This document shows, in pieces, positions 12,529 through 28,800 of a stretch of DNA of 64,000 nucleotides (position 1 is its first letter; each line of letters starts with the position of its first letter). Under the pieces are notes generated by a model. The model was not told the DNA's origin and made no database searches. It saw only the letters and a list, made by a program, of their open reading frames with translations. The DNA lies in NCBI RefSeq assembly GCF_000002985.6, contig NC_003284.9, forward strand, positions 10,292,001-10,356,000, written 5' to 3'. The DNA comes from Caenorhabditis elegans. Taxonomy: Eukaryota; Nematoda; Chromadorea; Rhabditida; Rhabditidae. A program made the position numbers and the translations under genes.

Positions 12529-12867
12529 ATGAACTCCTACTCTATTATTCTTCTCCTCGGCCTTCTCGCTGCCGTCATGGCCGCTCCACAAAGAGTCATT
12601 GAAAAGACCACCATTATCCGTGGAGGAGGTGGAGGTTTCGGAGGTGGGCCAGGACAGTTCGGTCGCGGTGGGTTTGGCGGAGGACCAGGATCTAACTACG
12701 GACCAGGACGTGGAGGATTCGGAGGAAACGGAGGATTCGGAGGAAATGGAGGATTTGGAGGTGGACCATCATATGGAGGAAGAGGTGGATTCGGTGGAGG
12801 ACCAGGATTCGGAGGACGTGGTGGACCAACTATCATCAAGGAGACCATCATCCGTGGAAGAAAGTAA
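12529..12867 (+). CDS. GFGG-repeat secreted peptide, antimicrobial-peptide-like
   Basis: A single-exon 112-residue preprotein. Residues 1-18 form a signal peptide ending VMA|A. The mature part starts APQRVIEKTTIIRG, runs through about 70 residues of GGFGG, GPG and RGG repeats, and ends PTIIKETIIRGRK. The start module is almost identical to that of the 10.7 kb gene, which has an intron that this gene lacks. The two ends of the mature peptide resemble each other ((V/I)I(E/K)(K/E)TxIIRG), framing the glycine-rich core like bookends. A polyadenylation signal AATAAA lies near 12921. Function is not known from sequence. A role in epidermal defence or as a surface/cuticle coat component is inferred. 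Confidence 0.88.
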   Translation: MNSYSIILLLGLLAAVMAAPQRVIEKTTIIRGGGGGFGGGPGQFGRGGFGGGPGSNYGPGRGGFGGNGGFGGNGGFGGGPSYGGRGGFGGGPGFGGRGGPTIIKETIIRGRK

Positions 12868-14622: not shown

Positions 14623-14883
14623 ATGCAGCTTAACGTTTTGTTGGTTTTTCTTGCTACCATTATTGGACTTGCCAGGTAATTTCAAGCAAATTGTCACACT
14701 TATTTTCAAATATTTAGTGCGCAATGGGGGTATGGTCGCCCATATGGAGGATATGGTGGATATGGTGGTGGCTATGGAGGATACGGACCACGACCATGGG
14801 GACCGAGACCTTGGGGTCCACGTCCAACAGTTATTGAGAAGACGGTCATTATCAGAAATGGACCATGGGCTCACAAAGTCTAA
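14623..14883 (+). CDS. QWGYG-type secreted peptide (NLP/CNC-like)
   Basis: Two exons (14623-14675, 14718-14883; a 42-nt intron) give 72 residues. The signal peptide MQLNVLLVFLATIIGLASA is followed by QWGYGRPYGG, a YGG-repeat core and tandem GPRPW motifs, then TVIEKTVIIRNG and a basic end. QWGYG plus YGG repeats is the hallmark of the C. elegans nlp-29/cnc antimicrobial peptide families. The C-terminal VIEKTVIIR module ties it to the two GFGG genes upstream, so it links two peptide styles. Secretion is clear. Antimicrobial function and induction by infection or wounding are inferred from the family. Confidence 0.88.
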
Positions 14884-19476: not shown

Positions 19477-20148
19477 ATGCAAGTGCTCGCAGCTCTTCTC
19501 ATTGCCTTGTTCGCTCTTATTGCGGTTGCATCTGCTTTCCGCGGAGGACATGGACGCCCACTATACGGTAACATATAATCATTTTATCCATTTCAGAGAC
19601 TTAAAATTTTGCAACAATCTATGTAACAGCCAATTTGAAGATTGAATTACAGTTAAAAATGCGCAACTGATAGCTGATATGTCGATTGATACAGACGACA
19701 TTCCACCGAATTTGTTAATGAATTTCAAAAAGGATACAAAAAAGTTAGGATGTTTGGAGTGTTCTTTCCTATTTCTATCTGTTTCCTTAACTATGACATC
19801 TTTTCAATTTTCACTGCAATCAGCTTGATGCATTTCCACAAACAAAAAGACACCAATACACAGAGCCGCATATAAAATGCTTTGATTGTTCTTCTTTGGG
19901 TTGAAGGGTGATAGGTTTTACGCGCACATTTATAAAGTTCCGGCTCTCAATCGCTTCTTCTTTTCTATCTAATTTTGTTGTGTGCATAAAAATCAATAAT
20001 CTTCTTTTATTATAGGAATAATTGGAGACGTTCAATCAGTGGAATCGTCAATCCCACTTCGAGGTTTCGCCAATCACGGTGGACGCGCGGCGGCCCGTTC
20101 GTACGACCAGTGGTAATGGGAGAATACTTGGTTTCTCATCAAACTTGA
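19477..20148 (+). CDS. Small secreted protein of unknown function
   Basis: Three exons (19477-19567, 19653-19743, 20016-20148) give 104 residues with matching phases throughout. Residues 1-20 are a strong signal peptide (ends AVASA). It is followed by FRGGHGRPLY, an acidic middle (IADMSIDTDDIPP, then KKDTKK), and an arginine/tryptophan-rich C-terminus containing TRGGPFVRPVVMGEYLV. The ATG follows a TTTTTTTACAG acceptor by one base, so the mRNA is probably SL1 trans-spliced, unlike the TATA-driven sister genes. An alternative that skips the middle exon changes frame and gives a 63-residue form ending at 20114. The signal-acidic spacer-cationic tail arrangement resembles a pro-peptide design. 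AATAAA lies near 20167. I do not recognise the family. Confidence 0.7.
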
Positions 20149-20755: not shown

Positions 20756-23700
20756 CTATCCAGTAATTGTAAATGCTTCGGGCGCTCTTCTCGCTCCTGA
20801 TGAATTCCTTCCAATTGGCTCCTCGGAATGAGCATCTGATGATCTTTGAGAGCTTGATGTCGTACGTGAGCTAGGACGACTTTGATGCTCACCCACATTC
20901 CCAGAAGAATCATATCCGCTTCTGCAAAAATACTTCTCAAATTTCCTGCTCATCAGATTGCGACTAACCTTTGACTGTCGGGAACTGCTGGAGGTTTTCC
21001 ACGTAATGTTGGAATGACAGCGCTTTGCCGATCAGCAGGCTAAACAGATGAAATAAAAACTAATATCGGATAAGATAAGGTTATGAATCTATAATAATCA
21101 GTTCACAAACCCTGTCTTGCCATGATGGTTTTTTCTCCCACCATTCCACTTTTCTTGGCTGTGAAGAATCAGGTCTCGGTTCGACGCCTTGATGATCATA
21201 TCTTGGTTGATTTCTGATTGGCCGAGAAATTGGTCGTTGCTGCGATGATTCTACAGATTTATACATGAATATGGTGACGTTTGTGTGTGCTAATTACCAG
21301 AAAACGAGTTCGAATTTCGCATGTTTTGCAAAGGCCGAATCGGCTCCTCACTCTCAGGATACGAATCATATGAGTCATTTTGACTATGTTGTGAGTATTC
21401 ATGTTGTTGCTGTTGGTGTTGTTGTTGATGATACTGAGGTACTGACGGACGACGTTCATTTTTTCGGTTTTGAGATTGAATCTGAATAGGCGAGTTAGAG
21501 CAAAACATAATTTTATTGTGAGATCAAAAGAAGAAATACGAAAATTTAAATTGCGCAACAAAAGATTTTTCAAAAAAGTTTCTGCCAGGTTATTCAATTT
21601 TGCAAAAAAAATATATCCTAAAAAATTCAGAAAGTTATGTACAAAAGTCGTGAAATTTTGAAGGGACATCTACTGTGATTTGTGAACTTTAAAAATTAAT
21701 TGTAAACGTATTTCTAATTAAATTTTACTCATCATTTTAGTTTGATTATTGCATAGCCTTTGAAATGTCTAAATTCAATAAAAGTATATCAAAACATCAT
21801 AACCTCATCATTTTTTCTGATTTCAAATGTTTGGTGATGCTTACCTGTTGTTTCTGGTAAACTTGTTGATTTCTTAGCTCAATGGCCCTTGCTTTATCTT
21901 GAATCTGTCTTTTTTCCCTGTCATCTTCTTCGCGAATTTTTTTCTGATATTCTTCCCATTTCCTAATTTCTCGTTGCTCTAATTCAATCTCTTTTTGCTT
22001 TTCAATTTCTTTTCTTCTTTTGTTCTCTTCAATTTGTTGTTGCAATTCTAATTTATGTTGTTCTTGACTGCTGAGTCCACCACTGAAATGAGTATTTAAT
22101 TATTTACAGGTTTTTGTTTAATGTGCCTACGATTTCTGTGCTAGATTCGGTAAGCTTCCATATTTAGCGTTCATTGTGTTTTGCCGGTATTGTTGATTTG
22201 CAGACTGGCGGGACATGTTTGCTTGGGTTGGCTGGCTATATGAATCTTGTCGATAGGGATTTTGAGTTTGGTAAACATCGCTTTTAGATTGACTTCGCAC
22301 GAGCGGGTTTGGTTGCGATGGTGACTGTGGCATGCTTTGGAACGGTTGAATAGCATTTTGCGCCAAAATTGGAGCATGCTGTTGAATCTGGAAAATACAT
22401 TAATCACTTTATTCAGGTGTTTTGAAAAGTATAAATGCCATCGATTACAATACTGCGCCATCTGGGAAGGCCCAGACAATAATCAAATATTAGAAGCTGA
22501 TTGCAAAAAAACTGCTCAAAATATGCCTCCATAGAAGTTTCAACTGAAGAGAAAAACTTTCCAGGCACCAATAAAATCCGAGAAAAATTTATCTTTTTGG
22601 AATCTTTTTCTTCCTCATCTTCTTTTTTGATTCGGTTATTAAGATATATACATTTCTGTCATTCAAAAAACATTTGCAAAATTGGTATACAACAGGGTTG
22701 GTTATAGATACATATGTTTACGCTAGATCAATCTACCAAAATATGAGTTTACTACACATGAGTCAAGGATGCTTTTTACTCATTGCTAATAAATGTTCTC
22801 CTATAAACCTGACTAACATGCAAATACTTATAAAGAATCAATTGTGTTAAAATATTTTTGAGTATTTTCATATGCTTGACTTTATAAGCGCGTGATTTTG
22901 TAAAAATGTATTTCATCCATTTTTACTCACCTGAGGTAATATAACTGGCGGGCTAGCGCCTTGAATCGGGTTTCCAAATTGTTTGTTGATCATCAAATTG
23001 ATATGAGGCTCCACCGGAACATAAACCAGCTGTCCGTTCATATAAAGCAAGCGTAGACCAACAATTGATCCTATTGGATCAATCATAGATGAGTGAAATG
23101 ACGACTGATAGATATTTGATTGATTAAGTGGTGGGAAGCCATTATTCATGAACTGATTATTGTTTTCTTGATTGCCAATTGAGGAACTATCCGTCATACT
23201 GTTTGTAGTAGTTGTTGAATTGGAAATTGATTGGGGTTCACTGGGGTGGTATTGTCTGAAAGTTAATTTAAACATCAAGGAAGGTGTCAATTTTTCTTTT
23301 TGCGTTTATTGTAAAATTTCAAGTCTCCAAATATAATCATTTATATATATATATATATATTTTGCTAAAAAGCGAAATACTAAAAAAAATTACAATAGCT
23401 TAAGAAAAACAACTTTGATATGAAATATAAGTCTGTTTTCAAATGCATATCATCATCATGATGTATTGCAACCCTGCTAGGACTGCAATTTTAACAGAAA
23501 ATAATTATAGAGAATAGTTCCACCGGTTTTTTATTAATGTAAATTTATATCGTGGATTTGTCTGAACTAAAAGTTATCGTCTACACCATTACACCGTTTT
23601 AATGTGTTTTCTGTAAGAACTAAAAAAACGTAATTTTATAGACAAACCGACAGATGCCCTTAAAATGATTATTGAATACAAACTTCTAAAGCTGATACTT

Positions 23701-23996
23701 TCTAATTTGTTCAAAAATTACCTGTTATCCTCATTTATGTATTTTGAAGACGCCTTATCATGTGATCTAGCAGTATTACTGCTGTCAGTGTTGAACCGGG
23801 ATGCAGAAGCAGTGTGTTTATATTGTTCAAACTGCAAAGTAAACTGTATGTGCGTTTTAATTTTGTGTTGAAACAATACAAAAAATTTTAAACTGAACTT
23901 TCGTATGTAGTGAATACGCGTGCGTTCTAGTGTTTTTTTTTTTGAACTTACGATATCAGAACGACTGGATGCATTGAAAGCGTAGGTGCGAACCAT
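20756..23996 (-). CDS. Q/S-rich coiled-coil protein, CCDC66/CSPP-like, candidate ciliary protein
   Basis: Nine exons (23952-23996, 23722-23831, 22931-23255, 22131-22387, 21845-22082, 21298-21481, 21111-21250, 20969-21039, 20756-20921) give 511 residues. There is no signal peptide or membrane segment. Residues 1-245 are low-complexity S/N/Q-rich, with a more ordered patch GLRLLYMNGQLVYVPVEPHI near 127-146. Residues 250-325 are a charged coiled coil (KRRKEIEKQKEIELEQREIRKWEEYQKK and on), resembling the short conserved coiled coil of CCDC66 and related centrosome/cilium proteins. Then come a Q/H run, basic-proline segments (KVEWWEKKPSWQDR) and an S/R-rich tail. The ATG follows a TTTCAG acceptor, suggesting trans-splicing. 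A perfect X-box lies 227 bp upstream. Family assignment is moderate; the gene model is strong. Confidence 0.85.
23339..23361. repeat. (AT)n microsatellite
   Basis: A run of alternating T and A of about 22 bases lies in the second intron of the coiled-coil gene. Simple repeat. Confidence 0.8.
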
Positions 23997-24222
23997 TATA
24001 CTCCTGAAATAATCATTGATGATAAAATTAAATAATTATTAAGATACTGGAGCAAGAAGAATTGGAGTACTACAATTGGACCAAATGAAAAAAAAAGCGA
24101 GTGACCACTATGAATAATAATGGGTGGTCCTTCCGCTTCCTAAAGAGGGGAAGTGTACGAATATGTAACGAAACTTAGCGCAATTTTAGCGCAACGCGCA
24201 CGCTTCTCCCTCCTGACCAATT

Positions 24223-24236
24223 GTTGTTATGGTAAC
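24223..24236 (-). promoter_or_regulatory. X-box (RFX/DAF-19 binding site)
   Basis: GTTGTTATGGTAAC fits the nematode X-box consensus GTHNYYATRRNAAC at every position, and its reverse complement fits as well. It lies 227 bp upstream of the ATG of the minus-strand coiled-coil gene, within the usual promoter distance for DAF-19 targets in ciliated sensory neurons. The nearest plus-strand gene start is more than 1.6 kb away. The site sits in a locally GC-richer block (24110-24260) that is presumably the core promoter. Confidence 0.75.
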
Positions 24237-24259
24237 CATCTCGGCGCAGAAAACAAGTG

Positions 24260-25509
24260 TTAGTAATGGCGTTTCCCTGCATAGACTCTCATGATCTCTT
24301 TCGAGCATATTTCCTGAACAATTGTATAAGAGGAGTCTGTGTTCTGAGAGGAAGCCATGCGATTATATTCTGGACACTATTAACGTTCATGCTGACCAAT
24401 GACTACGAAGAGAGGGCAAAAGGACCTGTGAAATGTATTCAAATAGTGCATGCGATTCCAAACAATTTAATTGAGTTGATTTTTGAGGCCTATAATATGA
24501 TGAAATTGACAATTGGTTGATCGCAATGTTGCAGTTCAGAAAATATCCAACGATTATAAAAAATGAAAGTTTAAATTTTCAAAAATGCAAAGAATAATGT
24601 ACAGATGAAGTACAGACAATATGATTCAATGAAAATAAGCTTGTAATAGAGAGGTAGGCGTCACAATGGTATGCTGTAAAATGTCATGTTAATTCGAAAA
24701 ACAGTACAATTTCAGATTCTGACATGGTGTTCGAGTTGTTTGGTTCAGTCGTTTATTTTTAAATGACAAGAAGACTTTTGGAAGTTCGTTCGGGGTTTTT
24801 TTTTTGAAACTTCTGAAGTATTTTACGTGGAATTATTGCAAATTTCAGTAATTTTGCATGTCCAAAGGTTGTCCAAAAATTCACCTTCTCTCTGGTCGGA
24901 TTTGTATTATGTTGATTTCAATTAGCAAAAAAATCATTTTATTTGTACTGTTTGTTTTTCTCCCAACAAAATATCTCTGCATGTAATATGTAGCTCTGTA
25001 GCCTCTGAAATGATTTAAATTAAAAAAAAACAATCAAGAACTATTTTGCAATAGAGGAAAAGTTAATATTTTAATGCTTTTCCACTTTTTTCAATTTCCC
25101 GTAAAATGACTAACTAGTAAGTACGATACAATTTCGAGTTCTATTTTTAATGTTTTCTTGTCGAACGTCGTGCAAACATCTTCAACAATATCGTAATATA
25201 AATAGGTCTGTTTGAAATAAAGAGTAAACTGTGAACTTTCGATTTTTAATACTTTTTTCTCCGAATTGTCTGGTCAAATAAGCAGTTGAAGAAAGGGGAT
25301 AAAGACATGCAAACTAAAATTGGTATGACCCACATTAAAAAACACGACAGTGGTTGCTAATATACAAATATGGATGTAGATGAATAGATTTATTTTTTAT
25401 TTCGACAGACAGACATTTTTCTATTTTTCGCTTCGTCACTATCATTCATCTTCCAGCAATAGCTTAGAAAAACTTGAGAAAATCCCGTTTCTTTCCCATT
25501 CATTGACCT
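24260..25509. other. Intergenic, nothing recognised
   Basis: AT-rich sequence with only short, composition-driven frames. It separates the X-box promoter from the small Cys-containing frame and the mucin-like gene. Confidence 0.5.
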
Positions 25510-25880: not shown

Positions 25881-28800
25881 ATGAGGGTGTTATTTTGCAC
25901 CCTCGTGGTGGTTGCTGCAACATCGGCACAATTTTTTTCAATGGGAAATAATCGAGAAAATTATTACGATCAGTTTGGTGTTAAAGACGCAATAAGTTCG
26001 TGGAGTGATGCATTGAAAAAAATCGCGATGAGGAATAATCCGAAATAGTGAGTTTAAACGATTACAAAAACATAACGCATGCTATCAAAGTCATGTTTTG
26101 TTGTTTTTCGAAATATATTTTGATTAACGGCATTTTCATTAGCGATATATATATTTTTTATTACTTGAATACGTTAACAATATGATTATTCTAATGTTCT
26201 GTATTTCAGCAATGCCCCAAGTAGAAGCTCGTTTACAATCCCACCACCTACTTTCAAAGCAGAAGACCTGGACATGAACAAGTTGAAACGTGGAAAAGGA
26301 GATAGTATTATTAACGAAAAAATGTTGACGCTTTTGCTTCCCCGTGTAAAAGGACAAAATCCGTTCACTACTACTTCCACAACTACCACCACAACAACAC
26401 AGAAACCAACAACCAGCACAACAACCACAACAACATCTACAACTCCAGTTCCAACAACAACCACCACCACGGAAGCAGCGACTACAACTGTTCTCACAAC
26501 TACAACGGAAGAGCTTCCAAAGCAACAGTTAGCAGGGAGGCTTGTCCAACCTGACATGGATAGTGGAGAGGTGAGAAACTAGCAAAATTGATAATTATCC
26601 GATTTATGACCGCCGCTTTATTTTAGCCGGAATCTGCCGAAGATGGTATCGACAAGAAGAAAACAGCGGAGAAAGTTGATTTCACAACAGATGACAATAA
26701 CGTTAGCCAGGAAGCGGATGCGAAACCAGATTCAACGCATGAGGTACGCAGTTAACAGCAGAACAGTAAGAAAAGTCATGTTCTGATAAAATAGAGATAA
26801 GGAGTTATTCAAATTTAAATCTGTCATATCAGGCAATTTTAGGAAAGTAAAACGCAACAGGCAAGAAGTAAGAGTAATTAATTCATTTAGTTGAGTACTT
26901 AGGAAATAATGTACGATTATTCTCAAATTTCAAATTTTCTGAAAATCGAAACTTGTTTGGAACTTTTAAAATTGTTTACTTCGACTGAGTTTCAATTTTA
27001 GTACCAAAAATAAGAGCTGTAAATTTCATACCTTTAATACTCTTCACTCTTTAACTTTAATACGCTCTAAAAAAATTTTCTGTGACTCCATCGGTTGGGA
27101 TTCCTTTTCTGTATTACTTTCAGGTCAAAGTTCCGAGAAGCTGTTCAAAATGGCTGAAACTTATAATGTTTTTCATTACAGAACGGAGGAGAACATGTTT
27201 CAACTACGCCTGAAGAATCTATTACCGAAAATACCACTGCTGAAGTACCAGCTTCGACAGCCTCAACGAAAGATACCAAGTTGTCTGTTAAAATCCGAAG
27301 TGAGGATGAGAAGAGGGAAGAAGATAAACTGTCCGATGACGAGAAGCCGAACTATATGAAGAAGTTAGAAGAAATTTACAAAAAGGAGGAAGAGCTGGTC
27401 GAAAGGGAGCTAGCCGAGATGTCTGTTGCGGAAATATTCGAGAAAGAAGTGGTTATAAAAACGACCAAAGTTACGCCAACAAGTACTACTACTGAAATAC
27501 CAACGACGACCACTACAGAAGAGGCAACAACCACAACTGAGGAAATCACAACTACTACAACCAAGGCTCCAACAACGACTACCACCCAATCTACAACAAC
27601 AACCACACAGCTGCCAACAACTACCACGACCACTGAACCCACAACTACTACTACGACAGTTGATCCATTGGCTGAAAATGAAGAATTGGAAAAACAAGCA
27701 ATTGAGGTAAATGTTTCAAAAACATTATTGAGTACTCTCAAAATCTTTCCTACAGGTTATGAAATCATTAGATGATGAGGAGAGGATTGACGCTGAGAAA
27801 AATGTCGAAGTCCAAAAGCGAAAGGATGAGAGAAATGCAGCAAGAAAGCGTATAAACAATTTCTTGAAGATGATGCGTAAGATATAATTTATTGTTAAGT
27901 GTTTTTAAGCTAGATATCATTACAGAAAAAGCTAGAGAAAACAAGAACAAACCTCACAAGGAGACCACTACAAGTTTGGCGACGGAGCAGCCAAAAACGA
28001 CCACAATCGTTGCTTCTTCAACTGAAACCTCTACTGTTACAACTGATGCAACTGAAGCAACAACTACCACAACTGCGCCAACAACAACTGTTGCTACGAC
28101 TACTACAAAAAAGCGATCAAATATTCCTGAAGCTGAAGAAGACGAGATAGAAGAGACGGCTGAAAAAACAACAACTAAAGTAACTGAGGATGGACCAATT
28201 ACAACTGAGTTCCCGGAATACATCAAGAAAAGGAATGCAATTGTTGGAAGTGAGTTTATTATAATGAACAGTATGTAAAAACTTTTTGTTTTCAGTCAAA
28301 ACACTTACGCCAGCTCAATTAGAAGCCGCTATAAACGCAAAACCAATTCCTTCGTCGGCATCTGAAGCAAGTGCACCATCCTCAAACGTTGAAACAGCGG
28401 AAGTAGCTGCTTCAGCTGCAGCTGCTCCAGTTGCTCTACCAGAACCAATTGCCCCACCACAGATAGCTCTTCCTCAACTGACTCCCGATCAAATTAGTCA
28501 ATTTATGAGACCAGTCGCTTCAATTGTTGAAGACATGAGACCAATCTTAGGATCTATCCTGCAAGGATCATCTGCCTCTAGAGCCCGAGTGAGAACGTTG
28601 TTTCTAGAATAACATAAATGTATAATTTAAGGCAGCCTCGGTTCGAACTTATGAGAAAACAAAAACTCCGAATATAAGAGATATCATGGCTGATGGATAC
28701 TCCGAGAACTCACTTGTTGGCTTTGGATCACAGCTGGCCAGAGAAATTTTGAATCCAGGAATTCTCAAAAGAGATAAATTGGTACGATAAAATTCGACTT

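Follow-up and report, generated by a model that had tools for sequence, protein, structure and literature searches.

Upstream of a minus-strand gene on the C. elegans X chromosome lies a 14-base X-box, and an earlier note on this DNA had read the gene as an undescribed ciliary gene with a CCDC66-like product. This raises the questions of whether the X-box marks a genuine target of the RFX factor DAF-19, whether the encoded protein is related to CCDC66, and whether the gene is new. We addressed them in the 64-kb stretch that contains the locus (assembly positions 10292001-10356000, hereafter the window).

The X-box and its statistical weight

Pattern search with the X-box consensus GTHNYYATRRNAAC identified one place in the window, at 24223-24236, where both strands match over the same 14 bases, with strand readings GTTGTTATGGTAAC and GTTACCATAACAAC. 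This sole full X-box (RFX/DAF-19 site consensus) of the window is located in the promoter of a minus-strand gene encoding a 511-residue protein, 227 bp upstream of its ATG (23996) on the gene's strand, so that the search recovered both the site and the distance previously described. The gene therefore carries the defining feature of an X-box gene, a 14-bp X-box within its promoter and close to the start codon, with the distance falling slightly beyond the range of -50 to -200 given as preferred in the text of Chen et al. (2006; PMC1794439). No forkhead-type motifs (RTAAAYA or its complement) were found in the region 23981-24740.

Shuffling of the window yielded a mean of 0.41 matches to the strict X-box pattern, with at least two matches in 11 of 100 shuffles, while a relaxed pattern produced four matches at three places in the actual window against 2.10 expected, a number reached by 17 of 100 shuffles. 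Genome-wide (100,286,401 bases in 7 contigs), the strict pattern generated 938 strand matches (460 + 478) versus 1116 (562 + 554) for the reversed pattern. In view of this lack of any excess over the reversed control, the motif by itself ought not to count as strong evidence. The arithmetic from the genome-wide density places the chance of an X-box in a given 250-bp promoter at approximately 0.2%, which is an upper bound because palindromic sites are counted twice. Among the roughly 20,000 genes of C. elegans, a chance X-box would be expected in some tens of promoters.

Since the X-box reads on both strands, it might instead serve the divergent plus-strand gene starting at 25881. The ATG of that gene lies 1.6 kb from the site, as opposed to 227 bp for the minus-strand ATG, and its product, which has a signal-peptide-like start and is Thr-rich, would by its sequence be a secreted, mucin-like protein; we consider this assignment most unlikely. 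The plus-strand gene itself extends from 25881 to about 28600, and its secreted-looking product starts with MRVLFCTLVVVAATSAQ and contains long T runs.

Gene structure and comparison with CCDC66

The minus-strand gene extends from 23996 to 20756 and was modelled with nine exons, the ends of which were placed by eye; all eight introns follow the gt...ag rule. The model comprises exon 1 with the ATG (23952..23996), exon 2 (23722..23831), exon 3 (22931..23255), exon 4 (22131..22387), exon 5 (21845..22082), exon 6 (21298..21481), exon 7 (21111..21250), exon 8 (20969..21039) and exon 9 with the stop codon (20756..20921), all on the minus strand. It yields the same 511-residue length as the earlier note, and a composition (S 13.9%, Q 13.1%) that bears out its description as Q/S-rich; the other sequence details of the note that were checked also hold. 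A TTTCAG at 24004..24009 (-), separated from the ATG by seven bases, is a plausible candidate trans-splice acceptor.

Exon 5 encodes a charged, predicted helical segment of coiled-coil type (residues 247-325), which includes KRRKEIEKQKEIELEQREI..WEEYQKK. When folded alone with AlphaFold2, this exon returned one helix spanning residues 5-78 of 79 (mean pLDDT 95.7, pTM 0.59). The charged segment is thus predicted to form one long helix, a prediction that does not by itself prove a coiled coil. Exon 7 (21111-21250, -) carries a tryptophan-rich motif, RKVEWWEKKPSWQDR, with the core WWEKKPSW, that is unusual in an otherwise low-complexity region and may be a conserved functional spot. The WWEKKPSW...IP stretch may resemble a C-terminal motif of vertebrate CCDC66, a likeness to which we gave no weight.

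Two frames of the 511-residue gene had no Pfam match over the cut-off, the best E-values (0.48 and 0.084) belonging to unrelated families, and no solved structure matched with an E-value of 1 or below. No paralogues were seen: when the 10 best candidates were scored, the seven hits in the genome with E of 0.01 or less all corresponded to the gene's own exons.

The earlier note had called the charged segment CCDC66-like and had proposed comparing it with CCDC66 profiles. We therefore searched for the CCDC66 family, PF15236, for which a match is counted above a cut-off of 29.9 bits. The 511-residue protein did not yield such a match: nothing was detected with the whole protein or with 77-aa and 100-aa pieces of the charged segment at E up to 10, nor with the exon 5 frame at E up to 1. 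A CCDC66 block, used as positive control, matched PF15236 at 1.3e-46, which indicates that the test works for CCDC66 proper. HMMER filters drop most weak matches, so this null result bears less on very remote kinship. A genome-wide CCDC66 family search found no match, but it likewise matched none of its 14 control genomes and is for that reason uninformative.

Direct alignment of exon 5 with the same CCDC66 block resulted in a score of 90, compared to a mean of 75 (sd 7.7) for 2000 shuffles, 4.3% of which reach 90; with 2000 heptad-keeping shuffles the mean was again 75 and 4.55% reached that score. The exon 5 segment reversed scored 88, and the score therefore looks like a product of composition and helix rather than of descent. 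In light of the shuffles and the reversed segment, we read it as what a charged helix of such make-up would give.

These results bear on the possibility that the gene encodes a highly divergent worm CCDC66, a protein of the ciliary tip module. Such a reading would fit the general build that the two proteins share, a charged helix within a low-complexity protein, and the modest elevation of the alignment score over shuffles. It would also fit the presence in the worm of one known ciliary tip module member, CHE-12, a homologue of TOGARAM1, and the reported putative Drosophila CCDC66, CG13251. The missing PF15236 match, set against the strong control, and the nearly equal score of the reversed segment make it quite unlikely. 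The more specific proposal that the protein is the much diverged CCDC66 counterpart acting with CHE-12 in the worm's ciliary tip module, similar in architecture but no longer in sequence, is about as unlikely. In print, CCDC66 is localised at the basal body, axoneme or ciliary tip (PMC12203965). No report of a worm CCDC66 was seen among the papers listed from the CCDC66, CSPP1 and X-box literature, including passages of PMC12203965 and of PMC10393296 (FKH-8), and C. elegans appears only in the reference lists in the passages of PMC12170345 and PMC12324684. The CCDC66 label is accordingly not upheld, and of the two independent hints at a cilium that had been put forward, the X-box carries weight and the CCDC66 likeness carries none.

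Neighbouring genes and the published record of F41E7.9

Ten frames of the window were searched against Pfam. A carnitine acyltransferase gene is located at approximately 15-18 kb, where two frames (17-17.6 kb) match PF00755 (E 1.6e-11 and 3.8e-9), and an acyltransferase gene lies at about 33 kb, with two frames matching PF01553. Beyond the latter, two frames at 39-40 kb belong to a mitochondrial carrier gene, and single frames at 45 kb and 48 kb match cuticlin and a papain-type protease, respectively. In the published passages, F41E7.6 is a carnitine acyltransferase of CROT type, ortholog of CROT (PMC11282107), R07E3.5 is acl-5, of the acyltransferase kind (PMC2612749), and F41E7.5 is X-linked (PMC5047749). 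A review of mitochondrial dysfunction includes R07E3.4 in one of its tables, and the passages of PMC10378590 do not state what R07E3.1 is.

The 511-residue gene thus looks like it sits at the apparent boundary between F41E7 and R07E3. Because it is flanked by F41E7.6-type and R07E3.5-type genes, and because an F41E7-named gene, F41E7.9, is listed in the literature as having an X-box, the gene with the X-box and the 511-residue product is very probably F41E7.9, a link based on the neighbours and the X-box.

The window also holds several plus-strand genes for small secreted-looking peptides: a Gly-rich peptide at 12529-12867, a 63-aa peptide encoded by two exons at 19477-20116, and a 72-aa Gly/Tyr-rich peptide at 14623-14883 that resembles the fip/antimicrobial peptide kind, such as fip-5 (F41E7.4). 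The last was considered as a position marker for fip-5; the printed length of fip-5 is 74 residues as against 72 here, and the likeness was for that reason not used as proof of position.

Chen et al. (2006; PMC1794439) screened for X-boxes and retained 93 genes in which the motif occurs in all of C. elegans, C. briggsae and C. remanei. Their Table 1 presents 25 of these that were tested with reporters, one of the 25 rows being F41E7.9. Its GFP reporter was observed in ciliated head and tail neurons. The table lists head neurons, tail neurons and hypodermis, whereas the legend of Fig. 2 describes expression exclusively in ciliated neuronal cells. The SAGE and daf-19 microarray columns for F41E7.9 both hold '-', and Table 1 hence gives no DAF-19 dependence. 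The gene is marked as uncharacterized, its earlier X-box prediction is credited to Efimenko et al., and its description is MAP4K4, which we take to be an artefact of coiled-coil similarity. A search for the name F41E7.9 in the main texts of the open literature led to one paper, PMC1794439.

Since PMC1794439 already tabulates F41E7.9, and an earlier prediction exists, the designation of the gene as undescribed was wrong: it has been in print since 2006. If the gene is F41E7.9, the X-box reported in three species and the reporter support its designation as an X-box gene active in ciliated neurons. The same evidence weighs against a reading of the site as a chance match in a gene unrelated to cilia. 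That reading draws on the genome-wide counts, lower than those of the reversed control, and on the 11 of 100 window shuffles that do equally well; set against the conserved site and the ciliated-neuron expression of F41E7.9, if this is the same gene, it is very unlikely.

A probable ciliated-neuron gene and its relation to known systems

Building on the X-box, the gene structure, the helix prediction and the neighbours, we infer with good confidence that the locus is F41E7.9, a known X-box gene driven by DAF-19 in ciliated sensory neurons and encoding a Q/S-rich protein with a long charged helix. Binding of DAF-19 to the site some 230 bp before the ATG would most likely activate its expression in ciliated sensory neurons; for this regulation we draw on the published record of F41E7.9 together with the X-box seen here. 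The product, which is Q/S-rich, largely of low complexity and predicted to contain one long charged helix, would probably serve in the sensory ending as a scaffold or as an accessory protein associated with microtubules.

Overall, this is very probably a gene that had previously been listed as an RFX target; its motif was read correctly, and the family claim is unsupported. The value of the case lies mainly in calibration, as what is very probably a real RFX-target gene was found from raw sequence, yet one that was on a published list. The remaining interest is modest, and concerns a gene of ciliated neurons with a product that PMC1794439 describes as uncharacterized.

In comparison with CCDC66 (PF15236), the likeness consists of a long charged helix surrounded by sequence that is largely of low complexity, and the difference lies in the 511-residue worm protein having no profile match and a pairwise score close to that of the reversed sequence. 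In comparison with F41E7.9 as it appears in the published passages, no difference was found, and the window gene, by inference the same gene, shares with it both the position between F41E7.6-type and R07E3.5-type neighbours and the upstream X-box.
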